In this document: positions 3,275 through 40,791 of the stretch, in pieces
How positions within the stretch are numbered: the stretch's first letter is position 1
How the letters are laid out: every line of letters begins with the position of its first letter
Assembly: GCA_006503475.1 (NCBI GenBank)
Contig: RSEH01000093.1
Coordinates: 62,001-126,000 of the forward strand
Direction of reading: 5' to 3'
From: Stentor roeselii
Lineage: Eukaryota > Ciliophora > Heterotrichea > Heterotrichida > Stentoridae
DNA: 64,000 bases
Notes under the pieces: model-generated
The model's input: the letters and a program-made list of their open reading frames with translations, nothing else
The model's database searches: none
What the model was told of the DNA's origin: nothing
Position numbers and translations under genes: made by a program

Positions 3275-4489
3275 TTAAACTACTTCAACAACAACAGCAC
3301 TTGCACCTCCTCCAGGATGCGAAACCGCAGCAACTCCAATACTTTTATTCCTTTCCCTCAAGGCATAAACCAAAGTAGCAACAATTCTTGCCCCACTCAT
3401 TCCAACAGGATCTCCAAGTGCAAGAGCGCCTCCATTAACATTGACCTTTTCCCTTGAAATTCCTTTCATCTTTAAAAAAACAAGTACACTAAGACTGAAG
3501 TCTTCATGAATCTCAAACAAATCAACTCCATCCAAAGAAATTCCAGCTTTTTTAACAGCGATGTCGACGACCTGCCCCGTCGCTTCTATAAACCTTCTAG
3601 GGTCAGTCTCAAAGTGAGCCCAAGCGAGTACCCTTGCAAGAGGTTTGACTCCAATTTTCCTGGCACGTTGTTCATTCACACAAACAATTCCACAAGCTCC
3701 ATCCGCGTATTTCGCCGAGTTTCCAGCAGTGATAGTTCCATCTTTTAAAAATAAAGTCCTCAACTGCGGAAGACTTGCCAGGTTCATTTTTCTCAGTTCT
3801 TCATCTTCTCTCACGAACTTTTGGTCGACACCTTTTGTGAACACCTCGACTTTCTCAGTCTCTTGCTTGAAAAAAAGACGCTGGCTTGCTTCGCGCGCCT
3901 TTGAATAAGACTCGCAGCTGTACTCGTCCTGGGCTGCTCGGGTTATGTCGAAGTTTAAAGCTGTGTCTTCTGCGAGTCTTCCTGGAAAGGAATTCGTGAT
4001 TGGACAGGATGAACCGTCTGAAAGAAGCGCGTCGGTCAATGTCCCGTCGCCGATCAATAAGCCTTTTCGGTTGTTGGGGAGGAGGAAAGGAGCAAGGCTC
4101 GGCATTTCCAGACCTAAAGCTATTGAGATTTGGCTATGGTCCAGGTGGATGCCTTGGCAGGCAAGGGTCAGTGCTTTTAGACCGGATGAGGAGGACTTGC
4201 TGATGTTGAAGCAGATTACGGAGTCTGGTAAACCTGAGTTTTGGGATATTTGACGCGATATTGACTGGCCCATACCTGATTGGAGACTCTGGCCCGTTAG
4301 TAAATGGGTTATTTGAGTTGGTACTAAACGGGATTGAATCAGGCAGGATTGAACTATTGAGGAACCTAAGTATGTTGCTGATAAACCGGATAAACTGCCC
4401 ATATAACTTCCAATAGGTGACCTGCGTGCAGAAACAATGACGACCCTAGACATGTAAGTAGAGACATTCCTATTTATCCGGCCCAGCAT
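3275..4489 (-). CDS. Thiolase-like protein lacking catalytic residues (probable pseudoenzyme)
   Basis: A 404-residue protein with a full-length thiolase fold pattern: VVIVSARRSPIGSYMGSLSG near the N-terminus, GTITAGNSAKYADGACG, VNVNGGALALGDPVGMSGAR, and a GGGASA end. Active thiolases use a nucleophilic Cys in NKVC(A/G)SG, Asn in NEAF, His in GHPIG and Cys in the C-terminal CxGGG region. Here the matching positions read SKSSSSG (Ser near residue 100), HEDF, GDPVG and VSHPGGG. All four are therefore changed although the surrounding motifs and length are intact. Standard acetyl-CoA acetyltransferase chemistry is unlikely; a binding or regulatory role, or a distinct thiolase-like protein class, is more plausible. 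The first 13 residues before MSRVV are Arg/Asn-rich and could be a short mitochondrial presequence, or translation may begin at the second Met. Confidence 0.85.
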   Translation of the reverse strand: MLGRINRNVSTYMSRVVIVSARRSPIGSYMGSLSGLSATYLGSSIVQSCLIQSRLVPTQITHLLTGQSLQSGMGQSISRQISQNSGLPDSVICFNISKSSSSGLKALTLACQGIHLDHSQISIALGLEMPSLAPFLLPNNRKGLLIGDGTLTDALLSDGSSCPITNSFPGRLAEDTALNFDITRAAQDEYSCESYSKAREASQRLFFKQETEKVEVFTKGVDQKFVREDEELRKMNLASLPQLRTLFLKDGTITAGNSAKYADGACGIVCVNEQRARKIGVKPLARVLAWAHFETDPRRFIEATGQVVDIAVKKAGISLDGVDLFEIHEDFSLSVLVFLKMKGISREKVNVNGGALALGDPVGMSGARIVATLVYALRERNKSIGVAAVSHPGGGASAVVVEVV

Positions 4490-4509
4490 AATAAGCCAGG
4501 TGGTTAACC

Positions 4510-5616
4510 TTATCTATTTCCAAACCCATTAGTGAATTCGAAGTCGTCTTCCCTACTAAAGAACCCAGTGGAAGGTACTTCTTCTTCTTCACTCTCACTA
4601 GTGGAAGAGCTTTCAGATTCCGAAGGTTCCGGCAAATAAACATCAGACTTGAAATCATTTTTCTGAGGTTCAGGCAATTTTACTTCTTTTTTAACCTCTT
4701 CTATTTTTTTTACGCTTTTATTTCCAATGCAAGATTTGACGTACTTGTCCAGTTCTCGACAGACACTTGGAGGAAGTCGGTCAATGTCGAACTCGAACTC
4801 CTTGCCTTTCATATCAGTGCAATCTTTCACGATATCTAAAACGCCTTTCAAGTACCGCGGTTCAAGTTTTTTGATATTATCACAAAGTTGTTTTTTTTCA
4901 AAGTACCCAAGTGGTTTATCTTGCGTTCTAATAGGATTTTCAGGTTTATTCTGAATGACTTTTAAAGCTTTTTCACTTTTTTCAACTTTTTCACTTTTTT
5001 CACTTTTTTCTATTCTGTCTTCCTTGGTTTTTTCGACTTTTTCATTTTTCTCTACAGAAGCCTTTTGTGGTGCAGTCTGAACGACGACATCATCCATTCC
5101 AACAATAAGATTTTCAAACTTATCACTGAGTTCACTGATCAAAGAGTAAACATCTGAATTCCCAGCGAAAAAGGAAAAAGAATTATTCCAAAGTTTCCTC
5201 ACATCAAGGGCAAAGCTATATCCATTCAGGTAAGTTCCAGACAAAAGTCTCAACTCAACAGTTGCCAAATCAAAGCAGTTATTAAATCTTTCATTGAACT
5301 CAGGAAAACTTTTTCTAGTGACAAAATCCCAAAAAGACGATATTTTTGGGTGTTGTTTCAAATCATTAAGAATTTTCAGAAGTTTTTTTCCTCCTTCATT
5401 TAACTTCACCGGTTCTTGACTTTTAACAATTTCTGGACCTGGTCGCTTTTCAGGAAGTCTTGACTGGTAGTTCAAGTTCGACATCAAATTTTCAGCTTCT
5501 GACTTTCGGTGAATCGCTTTGACTGGCTTGGGTTCAGCCCTGCAGCTTGTCTCGATTTTGTATTTAAAAGGCATGATTGCATTGATAATGGCGAGCTGTG
5601 TCGCGGAGAATTCCAT
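4510..5616 (-). CDS. BET-family-like protein: degenerate bromodomain plus NET domain
   Basis: A 368-residue protein. Residues about 95-180 resemble a bromodomain (FWDFVTRKSFPEF, then DLATVELRLLSGTY, WNNSFSFFAGNSDVY), but the usual acetyl-lysine-binding Asn of NCxxYN appears replaced by Phe and the PMD motif is lost. A charged linker rich in EKSEK repeats follows. Then comes a clear NET/ET domain (LGYFEKKQLCDNIKKL, FDIDRLPPSVCRELDKYVKS). The C-terminus is Ser/Glu-rich and acidic. BET proteins tie acetylated chromatin to transcription, with the NET domain recruiting partners. Nuclear location is inferred. The gene starts 10 bases after the stop of the upstream secreted-protein gene on the same strand, in the context CATAAATGG. 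Confidence 0.8.
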   Translation of the reverse strand: MEFSATQLAIINAIMPFKYKIETSCRAEPKPVKAIHRKSEAENLMSNLNYQSRLPEKRPGPEIVKSQEPVKLNEGGKKLLKILNDLKQHPKISSFWDFVTRKSFPEFNERFNNCFDLATVELRLLSGTYLNGYSFALDVRKLWNNSFSFFAGNSDVYSLISELSDKFENLIVGMDDVVVQTAPQKASVEKNEKVEKTKEDRIEKSEKSEKVEKSEKALKVIQNKPENPIRTQDKPLGYFEKKQLCDNIKKLEPRYLKGVLDIVKDCTDMKGKEFEFDIDRLPPSVCRELDKYVKSCIGNKSVKKIEEVKKEVKLPEPQKNDFKSDVYLPEPSESESSSTSESEEEEVPSTGFFSREDDFEFTNGFGNR

Positions 5617-6876: not shown

Positions 6877-8166
6877 TTAAACCACCAACTCACAGATCAA
6901 GAACTGAACCGACGAGCAAAAAACTTGAACTTCAGGAGAATCACTGAACTTCGACCCAAGAAAATCCCTGACAAGCTCGCATTCAGCTGCCGGGGTCTTC
7001 AGCGATGAGCGAAGAATGACGAAGGAAAGAAGCCGAAATTCTAATTCGTGAGTCGCTGAATCACTTTGAGTCGCTTCAATGATCCAGACCTTCAAAGCTC
7101 CGACGAGACTCGCCAAAGAACTTACTTTTTCCGAAGGACTTTTTTGGTCCTCGACTCGGTCGAGCATGTCGACGGCTTCATTGAAGACTTCACTGGGGCG
7201 AAGTTCATTTCCAATCATTAAAGTATCGAAGAGGTCTGAGTCAGTCCATTTGCTGGTCATTTGTCTTAACTCATTGACTTTTTCATCGCAACTCAACCAT
7301 TTCTGGGTGTATATCGGAAAGAGCACTGAGTATATCTTGCTGAAAATGTATTTCTCTACTGCTGGACGGCAAAACATCATCATTCGCTCGGAGTTTGCAC
7401 GGCCGTTGTTGTAGTGAGTGAAAAGTGCTTCAACTGTGTGATCGATTGTTTCTTTTACGCTGGTTAATGGAAGAGGCATCATGGAAACTGACTCTTCTGC
7501 GTTGCGGTATTGCTCGGAAAAGGCGGAGATGAAGTCGGATATTGACTTTCCCAGCGTGTAGGCCTCGGAACTGAGGATTTTGTGGAATTGGTAGTAAGAG
7601 GAACTCTCGTGTTTGCAGGTCATCACTGTTTCTTCTTCTTCGTTTATGAAGTTTTCGTAAGTCTCTGGTTGAAGTTTTGAGGTTTTCAAATAATCGTCAA
7701 GTCGGGTACGGAAGTCTGTGATTAGAGGAAGGAGAACTTGTGGAAGACCGTATATTCCTTTTATGTGAACTGTTCGCTTGCAGGTTGACTCGTTTAGAGA
7801 CAGGAGAAGACGCACTGCTGAAAGGATTTGACGAGGACGCTGCTCTGAGTTTAGGCAACACAGTAATACGCTTTTGAGGGAGTAACGCTCTTTGTAGACA
7901 GCTGTCGCCATCGAAGGAGTTCTTTCAATAACTTGAAATCTTTTCTTACCAGAAGACACCAAAAAAATATCAAATATTTCAGTAGTCGGGAAGCTAAAAG
8001 GTAATTCTCTCGAATAATTCGGCAAAAAAATTTCCAGATTATCATTAAGTGCAGATTCAGTTTTAATAATTAAAGAATGACTAGTAGTCAATTCCGATTT
8101 TTTCTGAACTTTGCGTTCTTCACTTAAGTCTTTGACATCAGCATCAACCATTTCCTGAAAAGCCAT
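6877..8166 (-). CDS. VPS9-domain-like protein (possible Rab5-type GEF)
   Basis: A 429-residue protein. The second half resembles a helical bundle plus VPS9 domain: RPAVEKYIFSKIYSVLFP, then PSEVFNEAVDMLDRVEDQKS, PSEKVSSLASLVGALKVWI and the closing EFRLLSFVILRSSLKTP. This order (helical bundle, hydrophobic FSKIY, SPxEK, then the LLxFVxLR segment) matches Rabex-5/RIN-type exchange factors. The usual DD-LLP stretch reads HELEFRLL and the conserved Tyr near the C-terminus is not obvious, so exchange activity is uncertain. If active it would act on endosomal Rab GTPases. The first 190 residues are unrecognised. The start ATG is in ATATAAATGG. Confidence 0.6.
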   Translation of the reverse strand: MAFQEMVDADVKDLSEERKVQKKSELTTSHSLIIKTESALNDNLEIFLPNYSRELPFSFPTTEIFDIFLVSSGKKRFQVIERTPSMATAVYKERYSLKSVLLCCLNSEQRPRQILSAVRLLLSLNESTCKRTVHIKGIYGLPQVLLPLITDFRTRLDDYLKTSKLQPETYENFINEEEETVMTCKHESSSYYQFHKILSSEAYTLGKSISDFISAFSEQYRNAEESVSMMPLPLTSVKETIDHTVEALFTHYNNGRANSERMMMFCRPAVEKYIFSKIYSVLFPIYTQKWLSCDEKVNELRQMTSKWTDSDLFDTLMIGNELRPSEVFNEAVDMLDRVEDQKSPSEKVSSLASLVGALKVWIIEATQSDSATHELEFRLLSFVILRSSLKTPAAECELVRDFLGSKFSDSPEVQVFCSSVQFLICELVV

Positions 8167-26069: not shown

Positions 26070-26318
26070 TTTTATGTAGGGTGTTCTGGTTTATCATTGG
26101 ATGGCAGGATAATTGAAATATGATAAAAATAGCTGAATAATTAGAAAAATTTGACTTATTAATTAATGGCCAAATTGGTAAGTTAAAAAATCTTTCCATC
26201 ATGACTATTCCATGAAAACTTTCATCAAATCTTGCAAAGTTCAGAAAATTTCTTAGAAAATGCTGAAAATTTTCGTGATAAGCCTGAAAATTTGACCACT
26301 TTAATAATAACCTCAAAA

Positions 26319-27836
26319 ATGGGATGTTGCAAATCAAGCGTTACTCTCGACCCAAAAAAATTCTTTTCAAGTGAAGTATTTCAAAAAGAAGGAAACACGA
26401 ACGAGGAGCCAAATTACTTAAAAAAGCGTAAAAAGTCGATAAAAATAACTATCCGTGAAAAAGTCAGCATAAAACTAGGTCACTTGTACCAGTACTACGA
26501 CATCGGCGATGTCATCGGCGAAGGCGGCTTCGGCTGTGTGCGAAGAGGTGTTCAGATCTCAACAGGTCAAGAAGTGGCAATAAAGACAATAATGAAGTCC
26601 TTAGTTCAACGAACAGACGACACAAATGCGATCATGGAAGTAGAAATTTTGAGAACCCTTGACCATCCCAATATTTTAAAGATAAAAGAAGTAGTTGAGG
26701 ACAATCGAAACTACCACATCATCACTGAACTCTGCACTGGTGGCGAGTTATTCGCAAAGATATCTGCAATGAAGTCGTTTGATGAGGTGGTTGTTTCGAA
26801 GTACATGAATCAGATCTTTTCTGCCCTGGCCTTCTGCCATGAACACGGCATTCTTCATCGAGATATCAAACCTGAGAACCTTTTGCTTCAAACTGACGCC
26901 GTCGACTCTCCCATCAAAATCATCGACTTTGGAGTCTCTGGACTGAACTACGGTCAAAACAACGGGAATGTCAGGCAGTTTGTTAGTATTTTTTACCGTT
27001 GTCCTGAATATTTTTCAGGTATTTGTGATACGAAAAGTGATGTTTGGAGTGTTGGAGTTATTATTTACTTGATGCTTGCCGGGTACTTGCCTTTCAAGGG
27101 GAAAAATGAGAAGCAGATGGCAGAAAGTATTAAAAATCAAGAACTGCTTTTTGAGGGTGATGAATGGAAAGAAATTACTGAAGATTGTAAAGATCTTTTA
27201 AGACATTTGCTTGTTAAGGACCCGAACGAGAGGTACTCGGCGAAGCAAGCTTTTCAACACCCGTGGATTAGCAATGGGTCTAACATGACGTTTTTACTTA
27301 GCAGGTCTTTGTCGCAGCTGGGTGTGAAAAATCTGTTGAAATTTCGCTTTCATATGAAACTTAGACATGCTGTTCTGGAGTTCATCGTGAGTCACTTCAC
27401 CCACACTTCGGAAATTTATGAACTCCAGCAGGCTTTTATCGCTATGGATTATAACGGTGACGGAAAACTCACGACTGAAGAACTAACCGTCGCTTGTCTG
27501 ATGCTTGAATACACCAAAGAAGACGTTCAAGACATCCTAGGCGAATGCGACGCAAACATGAACGGAAGTCTAGACTATACCGAATTCTTAACAGCCGCTT
27601 CGAATTGGAAAAAAGTTCTAAACAAAAACAAACTAAAAGCCACCTTTGACTGTTTTGACATCGATAAAGACGGAGTCATCAGCTTGCCTGAACTAAAAGA
27701 AATGCTCAGTAATGACATGGGAGTAGAAGAAGAGATCTGGAATGAAATCTTCGGAGAAGTCGACTCAAATCGTGATGGCATGATCGACCCTGAAGAATTC
27801 GAAGCTGCGGTTTTGTTAAAAGGCATTTCTTGGTGA
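26319..27836 (+). CDS. Calcium-dependent protein kinase (CDPK)
   Basis: A 505-residue CDPK from the ATG at 26319. The N-terminus MGCCKSSV carries a Gly for myristoylation and two Cys for palmitoylation, suggesting membrane attachment. The kinase has GEGGFGCVRRG, VAIKTI, HRDIKPENLLL and IDFGVSG. The activation loop is unusual: the APE motif reads CPE (FYRCPEYFSG) and the usual GTPYY is replaced. Four EF-hands follow (MDYNGDGKLTTEE, CDANMNGSLDYTE, FDIDKDGVISLPE, VDSNRDGMIDPEE), all with plausible calcium ligands. It should phosphorylate targets in response to calcium. It ends in TGA, 12 bases before the next gene. Confidence 0.93.
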   Translation: MGCCKSSVTLDPKKFFSSEVFQKEGNTNEEPNYLKKRKKSIKITIREKVSIKLGHLYQYYDIGDVIGEGGFGCVRRGVQISTGQEVAIKTIMKSLVQRTDDTNAIMEVEILRTLDHPNILKIKEVVEDNRNYHIITELCTGGELFAKISAMKSFDEVVVSKYMNQIFSALAFCHEHGILHRDIKPENLLLQTDAVDSPIKIIDFGVSGLNYGQNNGNVRQFVSIFYRCPEYFSGICDTKSDVWSVGVIIYLMLAGYLPFKGKNEKQMAESIKNQELLFEGDEWKEITEDCKDLLRHLLVKDPNERYSAKQAFQHPWISNGSNMTFLLSRSLSQLGVKNLLKFRFHMKLRHAVLEFIVSHFTHTSEIYELQQAFIAMDYNGDGKLTTEELTVACLMLEYTKEDVQDILGECDANMNGSLDYTEFLTAASNWKKVLNKNKLKATFDCFDIDKDGVISLPELKEMLSNDMGVEEEIWNEIFGEVDSNRDGMIDPEEFEAAVLLKGISW

Positions 27837-34871: not shown

Positions 34872-36506
34872 GAACAAGGATCTGAAAGATCTTCCAAGAT
34901 ACAACCTGAGCCTGAGTCAAACGACAGGATGCAACCTGAACCTGAGGATAATGATAGAAGACCTGCACTTTTTAATAATTTCAACTTTTTCAAGAGAAAA
35001 TCGGAAAATTCTGTTAGTCGAGTCCCTGCTGCGAAAGAAGTTGAAACTAAATCTAACTCGTTTTGGGTACCTCCTCCGAATAAGAACTTGAAAAGTATCA
35101 CTAGTGAAGAATTGAAAAATGATGATAATATTCTTGCTGTCTTGTCGTCGCTTAGTTGTGCTTGTGCATTGGCTGGTAATGAGCAGACTTTTTTGAAGTA
35201 CTCTGAGGAAGAATCGTATGTTCTTTACTTTCGATGTGCTTTGTTAATTATTTCTATTGCTAGTGTTATCTGGGTTGTTAGACGGTATCAGATGTTGCTT
35301 GTTCATCAAGTGCTGATTTATACAGTAGGGGTTAAAGACACTCTTTGGACAAGTGGCTTATGGAAAACAATGACAATCGAGATCCTAATTCATTCATTTT
35401 TCTCTCCACCAGGTATTGACTACCGATTCACAGTAAACACTTTAGGCTATGAAATCGAGTATTCCCTTGACGACATCCTAACAATTTTAGCCCTTTTTAG
35501 GCTTTACACCCTTCTACGTCTCTTCGGCCACCACAGTATCTACACTCAAAAAACAGCTGAAACAGTATGCGAAAGAAACGGTGAATCTGCAGATTCAATA
35601 TTCGCATTAAAGAGTTTCATTCAAGACAGTCCATTTCTAGGAATCGGTATAGTTTTCATCAGTCTTTCCTTATTCAGCGCAGTGGTGATGAGAATATTTG
35701 AAAGACCTGAGATCGTATCAGACGGAAAACCAATCCCAAGTAACTTAAGCGAGCTTTCTGACAACTTGTGGGTAATTTTCTTTACAACTACTACTGTCGG
35801 ATACGGTAACATTTATCCAATCACTCATATGGGAAGACTCACTTGCATCCTTGCCTGCATTTTCGGAAACATGTATCTGGGGATGCTTGTTGTCGCGATT
35901 AACCAGAAGATGGACCATTCAGACAGTGAAAACCTTTCATATGCCTGGATTTATCGGCATTATGTGAAAAATAATACTAAAAAGCATGCACTTAAATCCA
36001 TCAGACTTGCTGCTACTCTTTATCTGTTAAGTAAAAGATGGAAATGCAACTGTATCAGTCCTATTAAACCTAATCCACCAGTTAATATTGGAGAATGTTT
36101 CATTTCTTTTGATAGAAGGTTTTTGAATGAGAAACAGTTTATTAAAAAATGTCAGATTTATAGAGATATGAAAGGACATCTGATGAAAATGAAAGATATT
36201 ATTGATGATGCTAGGAATATTGGAAGGAAGGAAATTGAAAATATTAAGTTAATTGAAGATACTGTCAGAGTTGATACTTCTATCATTTTTAATAAGATTC
36301 AGAAAATGATCACGAGAGATACTTTGTTAATTAACAGCCAGACAAGCCATTCTCAGACTAATATTGAGAAAAAACTTGTTGAGGTCAAAGAAATGGCTAA
36401 TAAAATGAGAAAAACTATGAGAACTGTGTTGAGGAGACAGAATTCTCAGGATGACTCGCCTTTACTTAGAAGGGTTTCACTTGCTAATAGCTTTATGCTA
36501 AGCTAG
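34869..36506 (+). CDS. SK-type calcium-activated potassium channel-like protein
   Basis: A 545-residue channel. The selectivity filter is TVGYGN in WVIFFTTTTVGYGNIYP. Hydrophobic segments upstream (ALLIISIASVIWVVRRYQML, IVFISLSLFSAVVMRIF) and after the pore (LTCILACIFGNMYLGMLVVA) fit six transmembrane helices with the short loops of SK/KCa2 channels. The post-S6 stretch, with basic helical sequence (HYVKNNTKKHALKSIRLAAT), sits where SK channels bind calmodulin, and a C-terminal coiled coil follows. The voltage-sensor S4 is weakly charged, also SK-like. It would couple calcium to membrane potential in the cilium or cortex. The N-terminal 75 residues are low complexity. Confidence 0.82.
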   Translation: MEQGSERSSKIQPEPESNDRMQPEPEDNDRRPALFNNFNFFKRKSENSVSRVPAAKEVETKSNSFWVPPPNKNLKSITSEELKNDDNILAVLSSLSCACALAGNEQTFLKYSEEESYVLYFRCALLIISIASVIWVVRRYQMLLVHQVLIYTVGVKDTLWTSGLWKTMTIEILIHSFFSPPGIDYRFTVNTLGYEIEYSLDDILTILALFRLYTLLRLFGHHSIYTQKTAETVCERNGESADSIFALKSFIQDSPFLGIGIVFISLSLFSAVVMRIFERPEIVSDGKPIPSNLSELSDNLWVIFFTTTTVGYGNIYPITHMGRLTCILACIFGNMYLGMLVVAINQKMDHSDSENLSYAWIYRHYVKNNTKKHALKSIRLAATLYLLSKRWKCNCISPIKPNPPVNIGECFISFDRRFLNEKQFIKKCQIYRDMKGHLMKMKDIIDDARNIGRKEIENIKLIEDTVRVDTSIIFNKIQKMITRDTLLINSQTSHSQTNIEKKLVEVKEMANKMRKTMRTVLRRQNSQDDSPLLRRVSLANSFMLS

Positions 36507-36528
36507 AATAATTAGGTAATTATAATAA

Positions 36529-39500
36529 ATGGCTGCTAGGGTACATGAGCTTTTAAGTCAACTTGAACAGATTGACTATCGACATTCACCAACCAGTTCT
36601 CCTGTCGGAAATCAAAGATCAGTTCCCAACATCAGAGAAAGAAACTCAATGAAAAGAAGCCTGACCCATCTTCTTTCATCCCCAGTCCTGCAAGACTCCA
36701 ACCTAAGAACCGAGCTAGACGATTTAAAAGTACAACAAAAAGTTCTAAGTCTCCAAAAAAAGAAAGAAAACCAAAACTTCCAAAAACAATGCGAAAAAAT
36801 CGACACCCAAGTCAAAGCTCACAAAGAAGAGCTAATAAAACTAGAAAACCAGTTGATAACTCTAGAAACCAAGGCAGAAAACGTAGAAAAATCGATAAAA
36901 GAGAAGCAAGACGAGAAACTAGAAGCTTTCCGATACGCTTTAAAGCCTTTAGAAGACACAGCGAACACGATTTCAGATGAAAAAGAAGTCCTTATCCAGA
37001 AACACGAAAAACTGAGTAAAAGACTTGAAGAGCTTGATTCTTTAAGAAGTGTCAGAACCGACGAGCTCAAATCAGTCCTGGCCCAAAGGTCGGAATACGC
37101 CAAAAACCGAGAAAAACTTCAAAAGCTTTTAACAGACATCAAAGAAAACGACAACTGCAACTACCGCGAGTACGTCCAAGAGATTGAAACTCGAGAAATC
37201 CTCAACGCAATAAAAAACCGAAAGTCAAAACAAACAACTTCTCTTAAAGACCTGGAGAAAAAACTCGCTGAAATCGAAGTGGAAATCGAAAACTGCACAA
37301 AAAGACATCAAGAGATGAAAGGAGTCCCTGTTCTCATCCCGATAACCATAGAAAAAGAAATACTCGACATGGAAAACTACCTCAACTCCCTTTGCAAAGA
37401 CCTGAAAGTCCTTAGTTTAATGGACTTTATCCGAGAATACATGAAAAAAAAAACAGTCTCTCCTCAGGACTTAATCATTCAAGAGCAGATTTCACTTATT
37501 GAAGATAAAGAAATCCACATTGAGGAAAAATGGGCAAAACAAAAGGAAATGATGGAGTCAAAAATAATTGAAATGCGAAAAGTAACTGAAGAACAAGAAG
37601 TCGAACTTTATGCTTTAATCTCCAACTCCACTCCTGATAAACATCTAGAGTCAGCTTTATTGGAAATGCAAAGCACTTTAGAAATGATGAGAAAAGAAGC
37701 AGAAAAAGCTCATCGAAAGCATAAAGTAAAAATGCAAAACATCCAAAAGTGGAAAGAAGACAATCGCAAAAGACTTCAACAAATCGACTCCAGCAAGTTA
37801 ATCGACGATGTTGAAGTCATCAAGTCATTCAAACGTGAACTTCAAAAAAACGTTCCAAAACTTGACCAGTGGAAAGCCATCGAAAGTGTCATCAACAAGT
37901 ATATCGAAAAACTCACTGAAAGAAACAACAACTTTCAAGAAATACTAAAAAAAGAAACTGAAAGACTTGAATTTGAAAGCAAGCAAGAGTCGGAACTCAA
38001 AGAGCTCATCGCGAGTAAAAACGCTCTCATGGCTGACAGAGAGTCACTTCATCGAGAGTTCTTAAAAATAATCACTTTAGAAAAAGCAGCAGTGAAAAAA
38101 TTTGAAAACTTTAAAATCGAAATCGAAATTGAAAGGAAAAAACTTATTGAAAAAATAACTGAAACTAATATGAACAAGAATAAATCATCACTTTTACAGA
38201 TACAAAAGAAAAAAGGCGACAGGGCAATTGGCCAGATCAGGGAAAAAGAAGTGCAGACTGTTAAAGAAACTCAAGAAAAACAAAGAGAAGGTGTTAAGAA
38301 GAAGTTGGAAGGACTCACTTCTGATATTTCACATTGGGAGGGATTGATACAAAAAGTCGACTCGAGTATTAATGAAATATTAAAACCGGAAGTTACTAGT
38401 ATTGATCAGGATACTGTTAAGACCAAGCAGGAACTTCTGATTGTTTCTGAACAACTTAAAATTTTAAAGGATGCTGAAGAAGATGTTTCTGCGAAACTTG
38501 ATTATTTGATGGACTCGAAAAAAAGAGATATTAGCAGAAGTCTTCATAGGGCACTTGAAATTCATGGAAGTGATGTCGATCTTAAGAAGATTCATCGGTT
38601 GACTACTATTCGCGATAAAAAAGCATCTGCTATTAAACAACTTGTTGAGGAAAAGGAAAAAATTAAAAAAGAATATGAAATTAGGATGAAGAATAATCAG
38701 ATTGAAGAGGAGAAGATTAAGGCTAAAGTTATGAATCTTGAGGAAAATATTAATAATCAGGTTAAATCGAAAAAACAGTTTGAAATCTTCTCAAAACAAC
38801 TCACTACTGTTGAACATGATATTCCTGAAGATGATATTCCAGATATTGATCTTAATCAGGACTCTAAAGATGATGATGACTCACTTAAGGAGGACCAGGT
38901 CGGCAGTCGAGAGTCATATGAAGTAGAAAACACAATAGAAGCCCAATTAGAACTAGAAGAAAGTAAAGCATCAGACCCACATAACTCAACAACTCTGACT
39001 CTCAAAGGTGAAATCGAGATAAACATCGACCTAGACGACACTACCCAGGCCGAAAAAGACTTTTTTAATTCAATCGTTCCTCTGCTGACCGGAGTAAACA
39101 TCTACAAAAAACTCAGCCAAAGAAACTCTTTGGCTGTCGGTGAATTCGACCCTCTAGAGTCAGACGCTCCTGAAAACTTTGGATATGCTTTGAGAGTCAT
39201 GAGACTCAACAAATCACTTACTCGAATAGACTTCACCCATCCACAGAAAAAGACAAAAGAAGGGTCTTTTTTAGTTGAAACTATTTTGTCTGCTGTTATT
39301 CCTAAACATACTTCAGAGATGATTAAAGCACAGAAAAAAAATTGGCTAAATGATGGAAAAGATTTGGGAATCACTCCTGCTATGAACAAAAAGTACAGAG
39401 ACATGAAAAAAGCCGGCCTAATAAACTATTCCGACCCATCCTTCCGAGCAAAAAGTAAAGAAGCAAACTACTACCCATTTTTTGTAAACCTAGAAAAAGG

Positions 39501-39618
39501 CGGTAGAGTAGAGCTAATCGCATCAGGTTACTCAGCCTTCAAGCACTGGGTAGACGGTGTAAGTCTATTAGTCCGAACTCTAAAACAACTTCAAAGACTG
39601 AGTTCGCGCATCAGTTAA
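36529..39618 (+). CDS. Long coiled-coil protein with folded C-terminal domain
   Basis: A 1029-residue protein. After a Ser-rich N-terminus (about 60 residues), residues 65-770 are nearly continuous coiled coil with dense Lys/Glu heptads. An acidic linker (EDDIPDIDLNQDSKDDDDS) leads to a C-terminal domain of about 200 residues (TLTLKGEIEINIDLDDTTQ, FVNLEKGGRVELIASGYSAF, KHWVDGVSLLVRTLKQL) that resembles a PH-like fold by its strand-helix ending. It is probably a cytoskeletal or centriolar scaffold. No specific family was recognised. It starts 22 bases after the channel gene, in TAATAAATGG. Confidence 0.75.
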   Translation: MAARVHELLSQLEQIDYRHSPTSSPVGNQRSVPNIRERNSMKRSLTHLLSSPVLQDSNLRTELDDLKVQQKVLSLQKKKENQNFQKQCEKIDTQVKAHKEELIKLENQLITLETKAENVEKSIKEKQDEKLEAFRYALKPLEDTANTISDEKEVLIQKHEKLSKRLEELDSLRSVRTDELKSVLAQRSEYAKNREKLQKLLTDIKENDNCNYREYVQEIETREILNAIKNRKSKQTTSLKDLEKKLAEIEVEIENCTKRHQEMKGVPVLIPITIEKEILDMENYLNSLCKDLKVLSLMDFIREYMKKKTVSPQDLIIQEQISLIEDKEIHIEEKWAKQKEMMESKIIEMRKVTEEQEVELYALISNSTPDKHLESALLEMQSTLEMMRKEAEKAHRKHKVKMQNIQKWKEDNRKRLQQIDSSKLIDDVEVIKSFKRELQKNVPKLDQWKAIESVINKYIEKLTERNNNFQEILKKETERLEFESKQESELKELIASKNALMADRESLHREFLKIITLEKAAVKKFENFKIEIEIERKKLIEKITETNMNKNKSSLLQIQKKKGDRAIGQIREKEVQTVKETQEKQREGVKKKLEGLTSDISHWEGLIQKVDSSINEILKPEVTSIDQDTVKTKQELLIVSEQLKILKDAEEDVSAKLDYLMDSKKRDISRSLHRALEIHGSDVDLKKIHRLTTIRDKKASAIKQLVEEKEKIKKEYEIRMKNNQIEEEKIKAKVMNLEENINNQVKSKKQFEIFSKQLTTVEHDIPEDDIPDIDLNQDSKDDDDSLKEDQVGSRESYEVENTIEAQLELEESKASDPHNSTTLTLKGEIEINIDLDDTTQAEKDFFNSIVPLLTGVNIYKKLSQRNSLAVGEFDPLESDAPENFGYALRVMRLNKSLTRIDFTHPQKKTKEGSFLVETILSAVIPKHTSEMIKAQKKNWLNDGKDLGITPAMNKKYRDMKKAGLINYSDPSFRAKSKEANYYPFFVNLEKGGRVELIASGYSAFKHWVDGVSLLVRTLKQLQRLSSRIS

Positions 39619-39639
39619 TTTAATTTAACCAAGTCTAAA

Positions 39640-40791
39640 TCATGAAAGATCATCAGTATTCAAAAAAGTAACAATAACCGTTATATCATCTACCACATTC
39701 CCTTCATTAGAGATCCATTTAGTCCAGGCCAAAGCAGCCAATCTACAAGCGGCTTCCTTCGGGTCACGATTAGAAGTGCTGACAACTCTAACAGCTTCAT
39801 CATCCGAGATGAACTCCCAGACCCCATCACTACAAAGTACGATAAACTCATCATTTTCCGTAAGAGTCACTTCATTCGTTTGAGGGACACAAATGACTCC
39901 AATTGTCTGAGAGACCAAGTCTCCCAAAGCTCGAGTCATGGAAAGTCCTGGGTATTCCCTGCCCTTGAAGTAAACTCTTGAAGGGTTACGACCTGGAAGT
40001 TTTCGCACTTCTCCGCCAGCTGCTTCTATTCTTTCTTTTTCTTCTGACATGTCGGGCTTGTGGTCCATGTTGAGAACTATTGCTATGTGCCCTGAATCGG
40101 TTTTTCTGCCGAGGATTCCTCTCGAGTCACCTACGTGGGCAATGAATAGAGAAGACTTTCGCTTGTGGATTATTGTCGAAGTGCATCCTGACATGTTGCA
40201 GTCGTATTGGGATTCTTTTAAGCAGGAATGCTTTATTAGGTTCTGGTGAACTCGCACGAAACTGTCCTTTAAAGCTCGCTCGGGAGTCTCTTGCCAGCTT
40301 GGGTGAGATAGGAGAAGCTTTGGAAGCTCGGAATGAACGAAGTTTGAGATGTGATGGCCGTATACTCCATGTCCGTCGAAGACTCCCAGCATGAAATTAC
40401 TATCTTCAATGATAATCACGAAGTCATCCTGATTGGGCTGAGTGGGTTTCAATCCTTTTTTGCAGCAGACCCACATGTTTGACTTTTGTAAAACGTCAAT
40501 TTGGTTGTCGTGTCCGAAAATAGCCACTTTTTTATCTTCGAAAGGCTCTTGCTTGGATTCGCAGGGCACTCCTGCGATTTTTACAAAGTTGATCATTTCG
40601 TTAAAAGACCCTGAATCCGGTTTCAACTCACTCGGTTCAACTGCATCTGTGATTTTTTGAGATGGCCCGGGAAGGGATAACTTTGAGATTTGATCTGCTA
40701 ATGTCAGAGCTCGGTCTGGAGCTTTAGACGGGTATTGGATTACTTTTATACTTGAAATTTCATTTGAATCTTTACAGTGGCAACTTCCCAT
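39640..40791 (-). CDS. PP2C-type protein phosphatase with N-myristoylation signal
   Basis: A 383-residue PPM-family phosphatase. Metal-binding and family motifs are present: NQDDF, LGVFDGHGVYGH, HVGDSRG, DHKPDMSEEKERIEAAGG, MTRALGD and IVLCSDGVWEF, with the final DDIT. The N-terminus MGSCHCKDSNE has Gly2 plus Cys residues, predicting myristoylation and palmitoylation, as in many protist PP2Cs. It may oppose the membrane-tethered CDPKs encoded in the window, but this is inference. All catalytic residues appear intact. Confidence 0.93.
   Translation of the reverse strand: MGSCHCKDSNEISSIKVIQYPSKAPDRALTLADQISKLSLPGPSQKITDAVEPSELKPDSGSFNEMINFVKIAGVPCESKQEPFEDKKVAIFGHDNQIDVLQKSNMWVCCKKGLKPTQPNQDDFVIIIEDSNFMLGVFDGHGVYGHHISNFVHSELPKLLLSHPSWQETPERALKDSFVRVHQNLIKHSCLKESQYDCNMSGCTSTIIHKRKSSLFIAHVGDSRGILGRKTDSGHIAIVLNMDHKPDMSEEKERIEAAGGEVRKLPGRNPSRVYFKGREYPGLSMTRALGDLVSQTIGVICVPQTNEVTLTENDEFIVLCSDGVWEFISDDEAVRVVSTSNRDPKEAACRLAALAWTKWISNEGNVVDDITVIVTFLNTDDLS

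Follow-up and report, generated by a model that had tools for sequence, protein, structure and literature searches.

A gene may keep the whole body of a metabolic enzyme and yet hold none of the residues that carried its chemistry, and the question then is whether it is a protein with another job or a gene on its way out. The case considered here is an open reading frame of the heterotrich ciliate Stentor roeselii, contained in the window that we analysed, a 64,000-nucleotide stretch of contig RSEH01000093.1 (positions 62,001 to 126,000, assembly GCA_006503475.1). Judged by its sequence, the product is a thiolase of the mitochondrial acetoacetyl-coenzyme A (T2, ACAT1-like) type across its full length, and all four of its catalytic residues are replaced. 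We favor the reading that this is a retained pseudo-thiolase, which has lost thiolase chemistry, kept its folded body, and may serve as a noncatalytic subunit, and we put its probability at about one-half; the job of the kept protein is probably structural or regulatory.

The family assignment rests on several concordant matches. The frame has neither internal stops nor frameshifts over its whole 404 residues, and both Pfam domains are recognized in its product (Thiolase_N, E = 7.6e-56; Thiolase_C, E = 1.7e-32, spanning residues 282 to 402 of 404). The NCBIfam subfamily model TIGR01930 gives 301.7 bits against a cutoff of 240.55, and the protein scores below the respective cutoffs of the other 24 of the 25 NCBIfam models listed. 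Its top relatives among solved structures are acetyl-CoA acetyltransferases (about 266 bits), and the structure predicted by AlphaFold retains the thiolase fold. Full-length homology, length, domain order, tetramerization loop, and predicted fold are all shared with the T2/ACAT1 family (TIGR01930); what sets the protein apart is that the four catalytic residues, together with Gly415, Lys263, Ser284, and Met193, are all replaced.

Residue correspondences were taken from a residue-by-residue alignment to human T2 and other thiolases and are given in human T2 numbering (Table 1). The canonical Cys-Asn-His-Cys set, carried by the motifs CxS, NEAF, GHP, and CxG, has become Ser-His-Asp-Ser, with HEDF, GDP, and SHP at the last three sites. 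A preliminary description of this DNA had read the motifs SKSSSSG, HEDF, GDPVG, and VSHPGGG as replacements at all four catalytic sites, and each reading is correct, with S100, H328, D360, and S390 aligned at C126, N353, H385, and C413. Its claim that the catalytic set is lost and the fold kept is borne out jointly by the alignment and the predicted fold; Gly415, Lys263, Ser284, and Met193 are replacements beyond its list.

Table 1. Positions of the thiolase-like frame, its replaced or kept sites, and two further altered thiolases of the same genome (window coordinates unless another locus is named)
Feature	Position	Strand	Basis or remark
Putative thiolase-fold pseudoenzyme, 404 residues, single open frame	3275..4489	-	ATG at 4489; TAA stop
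Ser100, codon TCC, at nucleophile Cys126	4190..4192	-	Alignment to human T2
His328, codon CAT, at Asn353 (oxyanion hole 1 water)	3506..3508	-	Alignment to human T2
Asp360, codon GAT, at His385 (oxyanion hole 1)	3410..3412	-	Alignment to human T2
Ser390, codon TCG, at acid/base Cys413	3320..3322	-	Alignment to human T2
Pro392, codon CCT, at Gly415 (main-chain N, oxyanion hole 2)	3314..3316	-	Role from passages of PMC6790690; residue from alignment
Pantetheine loop AGNSAK (human AANAST), including Ser284 to Ala259	3710..3727	-	Coordinates by arithmetic from alignment
Ser239, codon AGT, at Lys263 (CoA 3'-phosphate salt bridge in human T2)	3773..3775	-	Alignment
Pro169, codon CCA, at Met193 in pantetheine tunnel	3983..3985	-	Alignment
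Tetramerization loop, residues 134-153 (human 160-177), near-canonical similarity	4031..4090	-	Coordinates by arithmetic
L004, Cys413 to Pro, other three catalytic sites intact	L004:1492-2679 (G000:C421)	+	
L009, second degenerate thiolase, His-Asn-Asp-Ile set	L009:1435-2574 (G000:C25, near 26249-27313)	-	

The replacements reach every part of the catalytic machinery. Proline has no main-chain NH, so that Pro392 in place of Gly415 damages oxyanion hole 2. In the passages of PMC6790690 that deal with the human enzyme, a single cavity receives all four catalytic residues, oxyanion hole 1 consists of His385 and a water held by Asn353, and oxyanion hole 2 is formed by the main-chain nitrogens of Cys126 and Gly415; for the human variant Cys126Ser, the same passages give wild-type-like expression and 0% activity. 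Because nucleophile, acid/base residue, and both oxyanion holes are altered, it is very likely that thiolysis and Claisen condensation have both been lost.

The window protein does not stand alone. We aligned 216 sequences, namely 214 listed database matches (the most similar ones, and not a random sample), the window protein, and human T2, and 208 of these carry Cys-Asn-His-Cys. The eight that do not carry the full set are the window protein, four of its close relatives, P0080 (a fragment of an intact copy), P0082 (394 residues, outside the group described below, with Cys413 replaced by Pro, CNHP), and P0001. The last is a 276-residue fragment of the window protein itself, missing the N-terminal part, identical throughout, and including three of the four catalytic changes; the three contigs that carry it are no longer than 12,209 bases, as against 158,038 bases for the window's contig, and may not be an independent sample. 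In a maximum-likelihood tree of 48 sequences, the window protein falls in a group of six (support, 100/100) within a larger group holding Blepharisma and Stentor proteins; the nearest intact relatives of this clade are placed with support of 84/60, which does not firmly resolve them. The other five members are unnamed database entries. A clade profile built from the window protein and P0002 to P0005 scores the latter four at 736 to 747 bits, which is high partly by construction, and P0121, the sole member found from outside the profile's own rows, at 687; the next listed protein reaches 538, and the only protein named Stentor coeruleus among the 120 matches listed reaches 500.

Within the clade, loss is graded. 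The six catalytic sets all differ (window protein, SHDS; P0002, CNHC; P0003, CDNC; P0004, CNHP; P0005, CNHA; P0121, CNHS), and on its sequence the window gene is the end state of the series. All six members have AGNSA in the pantetheine loop, where intact sequences mostly have AANAS, and in all six Gly415 is Ala or Pro and both Met193 and Ser284 are changed; Lys263 is lost in five and the acid/base Cys413 in four, and the nucleophile Cys126 only in the window gene. From this distribution, it appears that the CoA site was altered before the nucleophile was lost.

This bears on the first alternative, that the protein is a sensor or sink that binds CoA or acyl-CoA without turnover. According to the portions of PMC6790690 on ligand binding, the CoA 3'-phosphate is held in human T2 by a single salt bridge, that of Lys263, residues 193-200, 280-285, and 353-356 line the pantetheine tunnel, and Tyr219 hydrogen-bonds the adenine. 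Only Tyr219 is kept among the four CoA-site residues compared, and its retention is what such a sensor would call for; by its title, crystal structure 6bjb is of a Cys-to-Ser thiolase with propionyl-CoA, and active-site mutants of PcaF are described as binding CoA derivatives (PMC7337054, in part). The clade-wide losses of Ser284, Met193, and, in all but one member, Lys263 point the other way, as do the ligand loops, which have a mean identity of 0.33 to 20 intact sequences whose own mean is 0.74; the CoA-binding loops are where the window protein is least like intact thiolases. Because the CoA-contacting residues are themselves replaced, the acyl-CoA-binding role proposed in the preliminary description is weakened, and we regard the sensor as unlikely, if the best placed of the alternatives. 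Under the retained pseudo-thiolase reading, CoA or acyl-CoA would more plausibly than not be bound weakly or differently, as far as these residues can tell.

The second alternative, rated slightly lower, is that the gene is decaying or under relaxed constraint and that the catalytic changes are its first visible damage. We addressed the pattern of change with a column test, comparing the active/CoA set with the remainder of the 80 columns in which identity among 35 intact sequences is 95% or higher; these sequences include human T2 and leave out the six clade members, the Stentor roeselii loci L004 and L006 to L009, the near-duplicate P0012, and the paralogues L002 and L003, which are near-identical to P0006 and P0130. 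In the window protein, 10/21 columns of the active/CoA set are changed versus 7/59 elsewhere (p = 0.0014), and without the four catalytic residues the contrast is 6/17 versus 7/59 (p = 0.034). Outside the active/CoA set, intact thiolases vary more at the columns changed in the window protein than at the unchanged ones (area under the curve, 0.669; p = 5e-4), and the variability of the clade tracks canonical variability (Spearman 0.42, n = 340); inside the set, the first comparison gives 0.643 (p = 0.26). A neutral end branch, with about 198 missense changes (0.49 per site), should have produced 9 to 12 stop codons, none of which is observed; the probability of no stop is 6e-6 to 1.4e-4, varying with transition bias and assuming that the entire end branch was neutral. 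Lengths in the clade are steady at 403 to 404 residues, with one single-residue gap among the five members aligned, and five positions are newly fixed in all six. The open frame, together with substitutions that avoid conserved sites, speaks against a decaying pseudogene, and these patterns make it probable that purifying selection still acts on the fold. A scan of viral contigs with the clade alignment for close orthologue DNA returned only two distant thiolases, L010 (34% identity) and L011 (26%).

Several results nonetheless weigh against our preferred reading, and some of them favor decay. First, the window protein has a long end branch (0.49, compared with a median of 0.15), and the difference in catalytic sets among all six members is stepwise loss that fits relaxed constraint as well as a new role. 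Second, where the ancestral state of a column is clear, changes on the window's branch amount to 7/28 inside and 47/187 outside the active/CoA set, 25% each, so that by this measure there is no excess of active-site change; it disagrees with the column test, and drops columns at which P0002 and P0003 differ, including two catalytic ones. Third, the column test is significant in just three of the six members, the window protein, P0003 (p = 0.045), and P0004 (p = 0.020), with 0.26 for P0002, 0.11 for P0005, and 0.105 for P0121; for the window's catalytic loops alone it is borderline (5/11 versus 12/69, p = 0.0496), and clade conservation inside the active/CoA set still tracks the canonical pattern (Spearman 0.48, n = 52). 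Because the stop-codon bound assumes neutrality along the whole branch, a very recent loss of function is compatible with it. Fourth, in comparison with the intact paralogue L002, the tetramerization loop (11/18 identical) is not significantly better kept than the rest of the protein (173/336; p = 0.48), and the ligand loops (11/33) score lower than the rest (p = 0.067) and than the tetramerization loop (p = 0.078), but in neither case significantly. Finally, AlphaFold supplied with a thiolase alignment would retain the fold regardless of single residues, and the part of PMC7337054 on PcaF gives the double mutants H356A-C90S and H356A-C386A 7% and 5% activity, so that two replaced sites need not mean zero activity. 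The preliminary description had named decay as one of the findings that would overturn it; the intact frame and the sparing of conserved sites favor a kept gene, and the drift in catalytic sets remains on the other side.

A third alternative, which we think improbable, is that the enzyme was repurposed, with Ser100, His328, and Asp360 forming a putative Ser-His-Asp set of a serine esterase, thioesterase, or acyltransferase in the thiolase pocket. The catalytic sites of thiolases and ketosynthases correspond, and the sharing of one cavity by the T2 residues would suit such a set. In the sections of PMC12664062 on related enzymes, Cys-His-Asn is the set of FabH-like priming ketosynthases, and DpsC, a protein of thiolase fold, is given as Ser118-His297-Asp302, self-acylating, and handing its acyl group to a carrier protein. 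However, the Asp of DpsC follows the His by five residues, compared with 32 in the window protein, and parts of PMC9573744 describe DpsC instead as Ser-His-His (His266 and His297), so that the likeness is one of letters and not clearly of places. The same parts report that CerJ, with a Cys-His-Asp set, is inactive as C116S. Moreover, with Pro392 in place oxyanion hole 2 is left with one main-chain donor instead of two, the CoA-binding residues are degraded, and the Ser-His-Asp set is absent from all five clade-mates.

A bolder and still less probable form of this proposal has the pocket rebuilt and not erased, with the triad as a new serine hydrolase or acyltransferase and a second family, that of L009, carrying a parallel candidate rewritten site (His, Asn, Asp, and a shifted Cys). 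If true, new chemistry would have arisen from T2 thiolase in heterotrich ciliates on two occasions or more. L009 lies in the same genome, has the thiolase fold, and shares the His385-to-Asp change with the window protein; it is unlike it in being deeper, separate, and more degenerate, with near-invariant motifs of its own. Its eight relatives, P0215 to P0222, have His at the nucleophile position and near-invariant GHxG, ND(F/Y)F, GDT, and NCxxE, and the cationic/adenine region is shortened. With motifs so nearly invariant, this family is a better candidate for new chemistry than the window protein. The column test gives p = 0.015 for L009; a profile that matched T2 structures also contained the window protein and ordinary thiolases, so that its match tells us little about the L009 relatives by themselves. 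L004, by contrast with its Blepharisma stoltei relative P0019, which retains Cys413, has the same Pro at this site as the clade member P0004 (column test, p = 0.68). The weakest alternative, that the four changes are assembly or sequencing errors in an ordinary thiolase, found no supporting point and can be dismissed, as the nearest intact paralogue is just 50% identical (201/403), four related database proteins have partial versions of the changes, and an identical 276-residue fragment occurs on other contigs.

How might the retained pseudo-thiolase be used? Its ancestor would have been a T2 thiolase that was duplicated within heterotrich ciliates. A search of the 44.4-Mb assembly (522 contigs) gave at least nine thiolase matches, a lower bound: the window gene, which is the single match on its own contig, L004, L009, and six homologues with Cys-Asn-His-Cys (L002, L003, and L005 to L008), the intact paralogues for which the preliminary description had proposed a search. 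L002 and L003 are each 65% identical to Stentor coeruleus SteCoe_33279 (262/403 and 261/403), and 65% and 63% identical to a Blepharisma stoltei protein (260/403 and 254/403), values that, on these genes alone, would point to a heterotrich host distinct from both of those species. Because the tetramerization loop is kept, the window protein could join the assembly of a paralogue, and we tentatively suggest, with rather less assurance than for selection on the fold, that it may act as a noncatalytic subunit in the tight dimer or tetramer of an intact one, for example that on G000:C231. Such a subunit would dilute or tune the activity of its partner, since T2 active sites are completed by neighboring subunits. 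The other role proposed in the preliminary description, regulation of an active partner, would suit the retained tetramerization loop.

Thiolase-like proteins without catalytic residues are already known, and the closest parallels differ from the window protein in distinct ways. Within the thiolase superfamily, PqsB of PqsBC is without the triad and forms a pair with a catalytic subunit related to it, and the chain-length factors of ketosynthase-chain-length factor heterodimers lack catalytic residues; both belong to the ketosynthase branch, with genes adjacent to those of their partners. The window gene has no thiolase among the six neighboring open reading frames scanned, and its partner is only a candidate, among the intact paralogues elsewhere in the genome. 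Mycobacterial MsTLP1 likewise has a thiolase fold without catalytic fingerprints; the available text of PMC3406046 reports that thiolase activity was measured and absent, and describes a monomer with an extra C-terminal domain, the motifs YSCF, GGL, and NGG, and 15% identity to Zoogloea ramigera thiolase. The window protein, with HEDF, GDP, and SHP, no extra C-terminal domain, and a place inside a group of heterotrich-like T2s, is not of this type, a comparison made by description and not in the tree. The trypanosome protein SLP and the aldolases Sal and Ltp2 are also thiolase relatives with altered active sites, one of them from a protist. These proteins carry YDHF, YDCY, or YDCF, which according to parts of PMC12329534 serves Sal and Ltp2 in retro-aldol cleavage and is suggested to do so in TbSLP; the window protein has HEDF in place of YDxF/Y (equating that motif with the NEAF site is our own reading) and was excluded from this group too, again by description and outside the tree. 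By title, no TLP1 or SLP entry is among the best 50 structure-comparison rows listed.

The surroundings of the gene give no metabolic clue. Five of the six neighboring frames have Pfam matches (kinase, TPR, C2H2, BET bromodomain, and NF-Y-like), and the frame at 6877-8166 has none. Upstream, the gene with the BET bromodomain (4510-5616, minus strand) ends only 20 bases (4490-4509) before the pseudo-thiolase ATG. Farther along, positions 36001-40000 of the window have a strong AT skew (0.262) over a 1,029-residue frame (36529-39618), which by eye seems K/E-rich and coiled-coil-like.

In the literature on thiolase pseudoenzymes, Stentor, and ciliates, as far as it is openly accessible (subscription papers being largely uncovered), we found no account of such a heterotrich pseudo-thiolase. 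Genes of this kind are misnamed by automatic annotation: the window protein passes the curated TIGR01930 cutoff, and the L009-family member P0215 carries the label acetyl-CoA C-acetyltransferase. This one clade runs from an enzyme-like CNHC relative, through half-altered members, to the fully altered window gene, whose genome also has intact paralogues, and so it suggests in what order an active site is probably taken apart: the CoA loop and Gly415 first (six of six), then the acid/base Cys (four of six), and the nucleophile last, in the window gene only.
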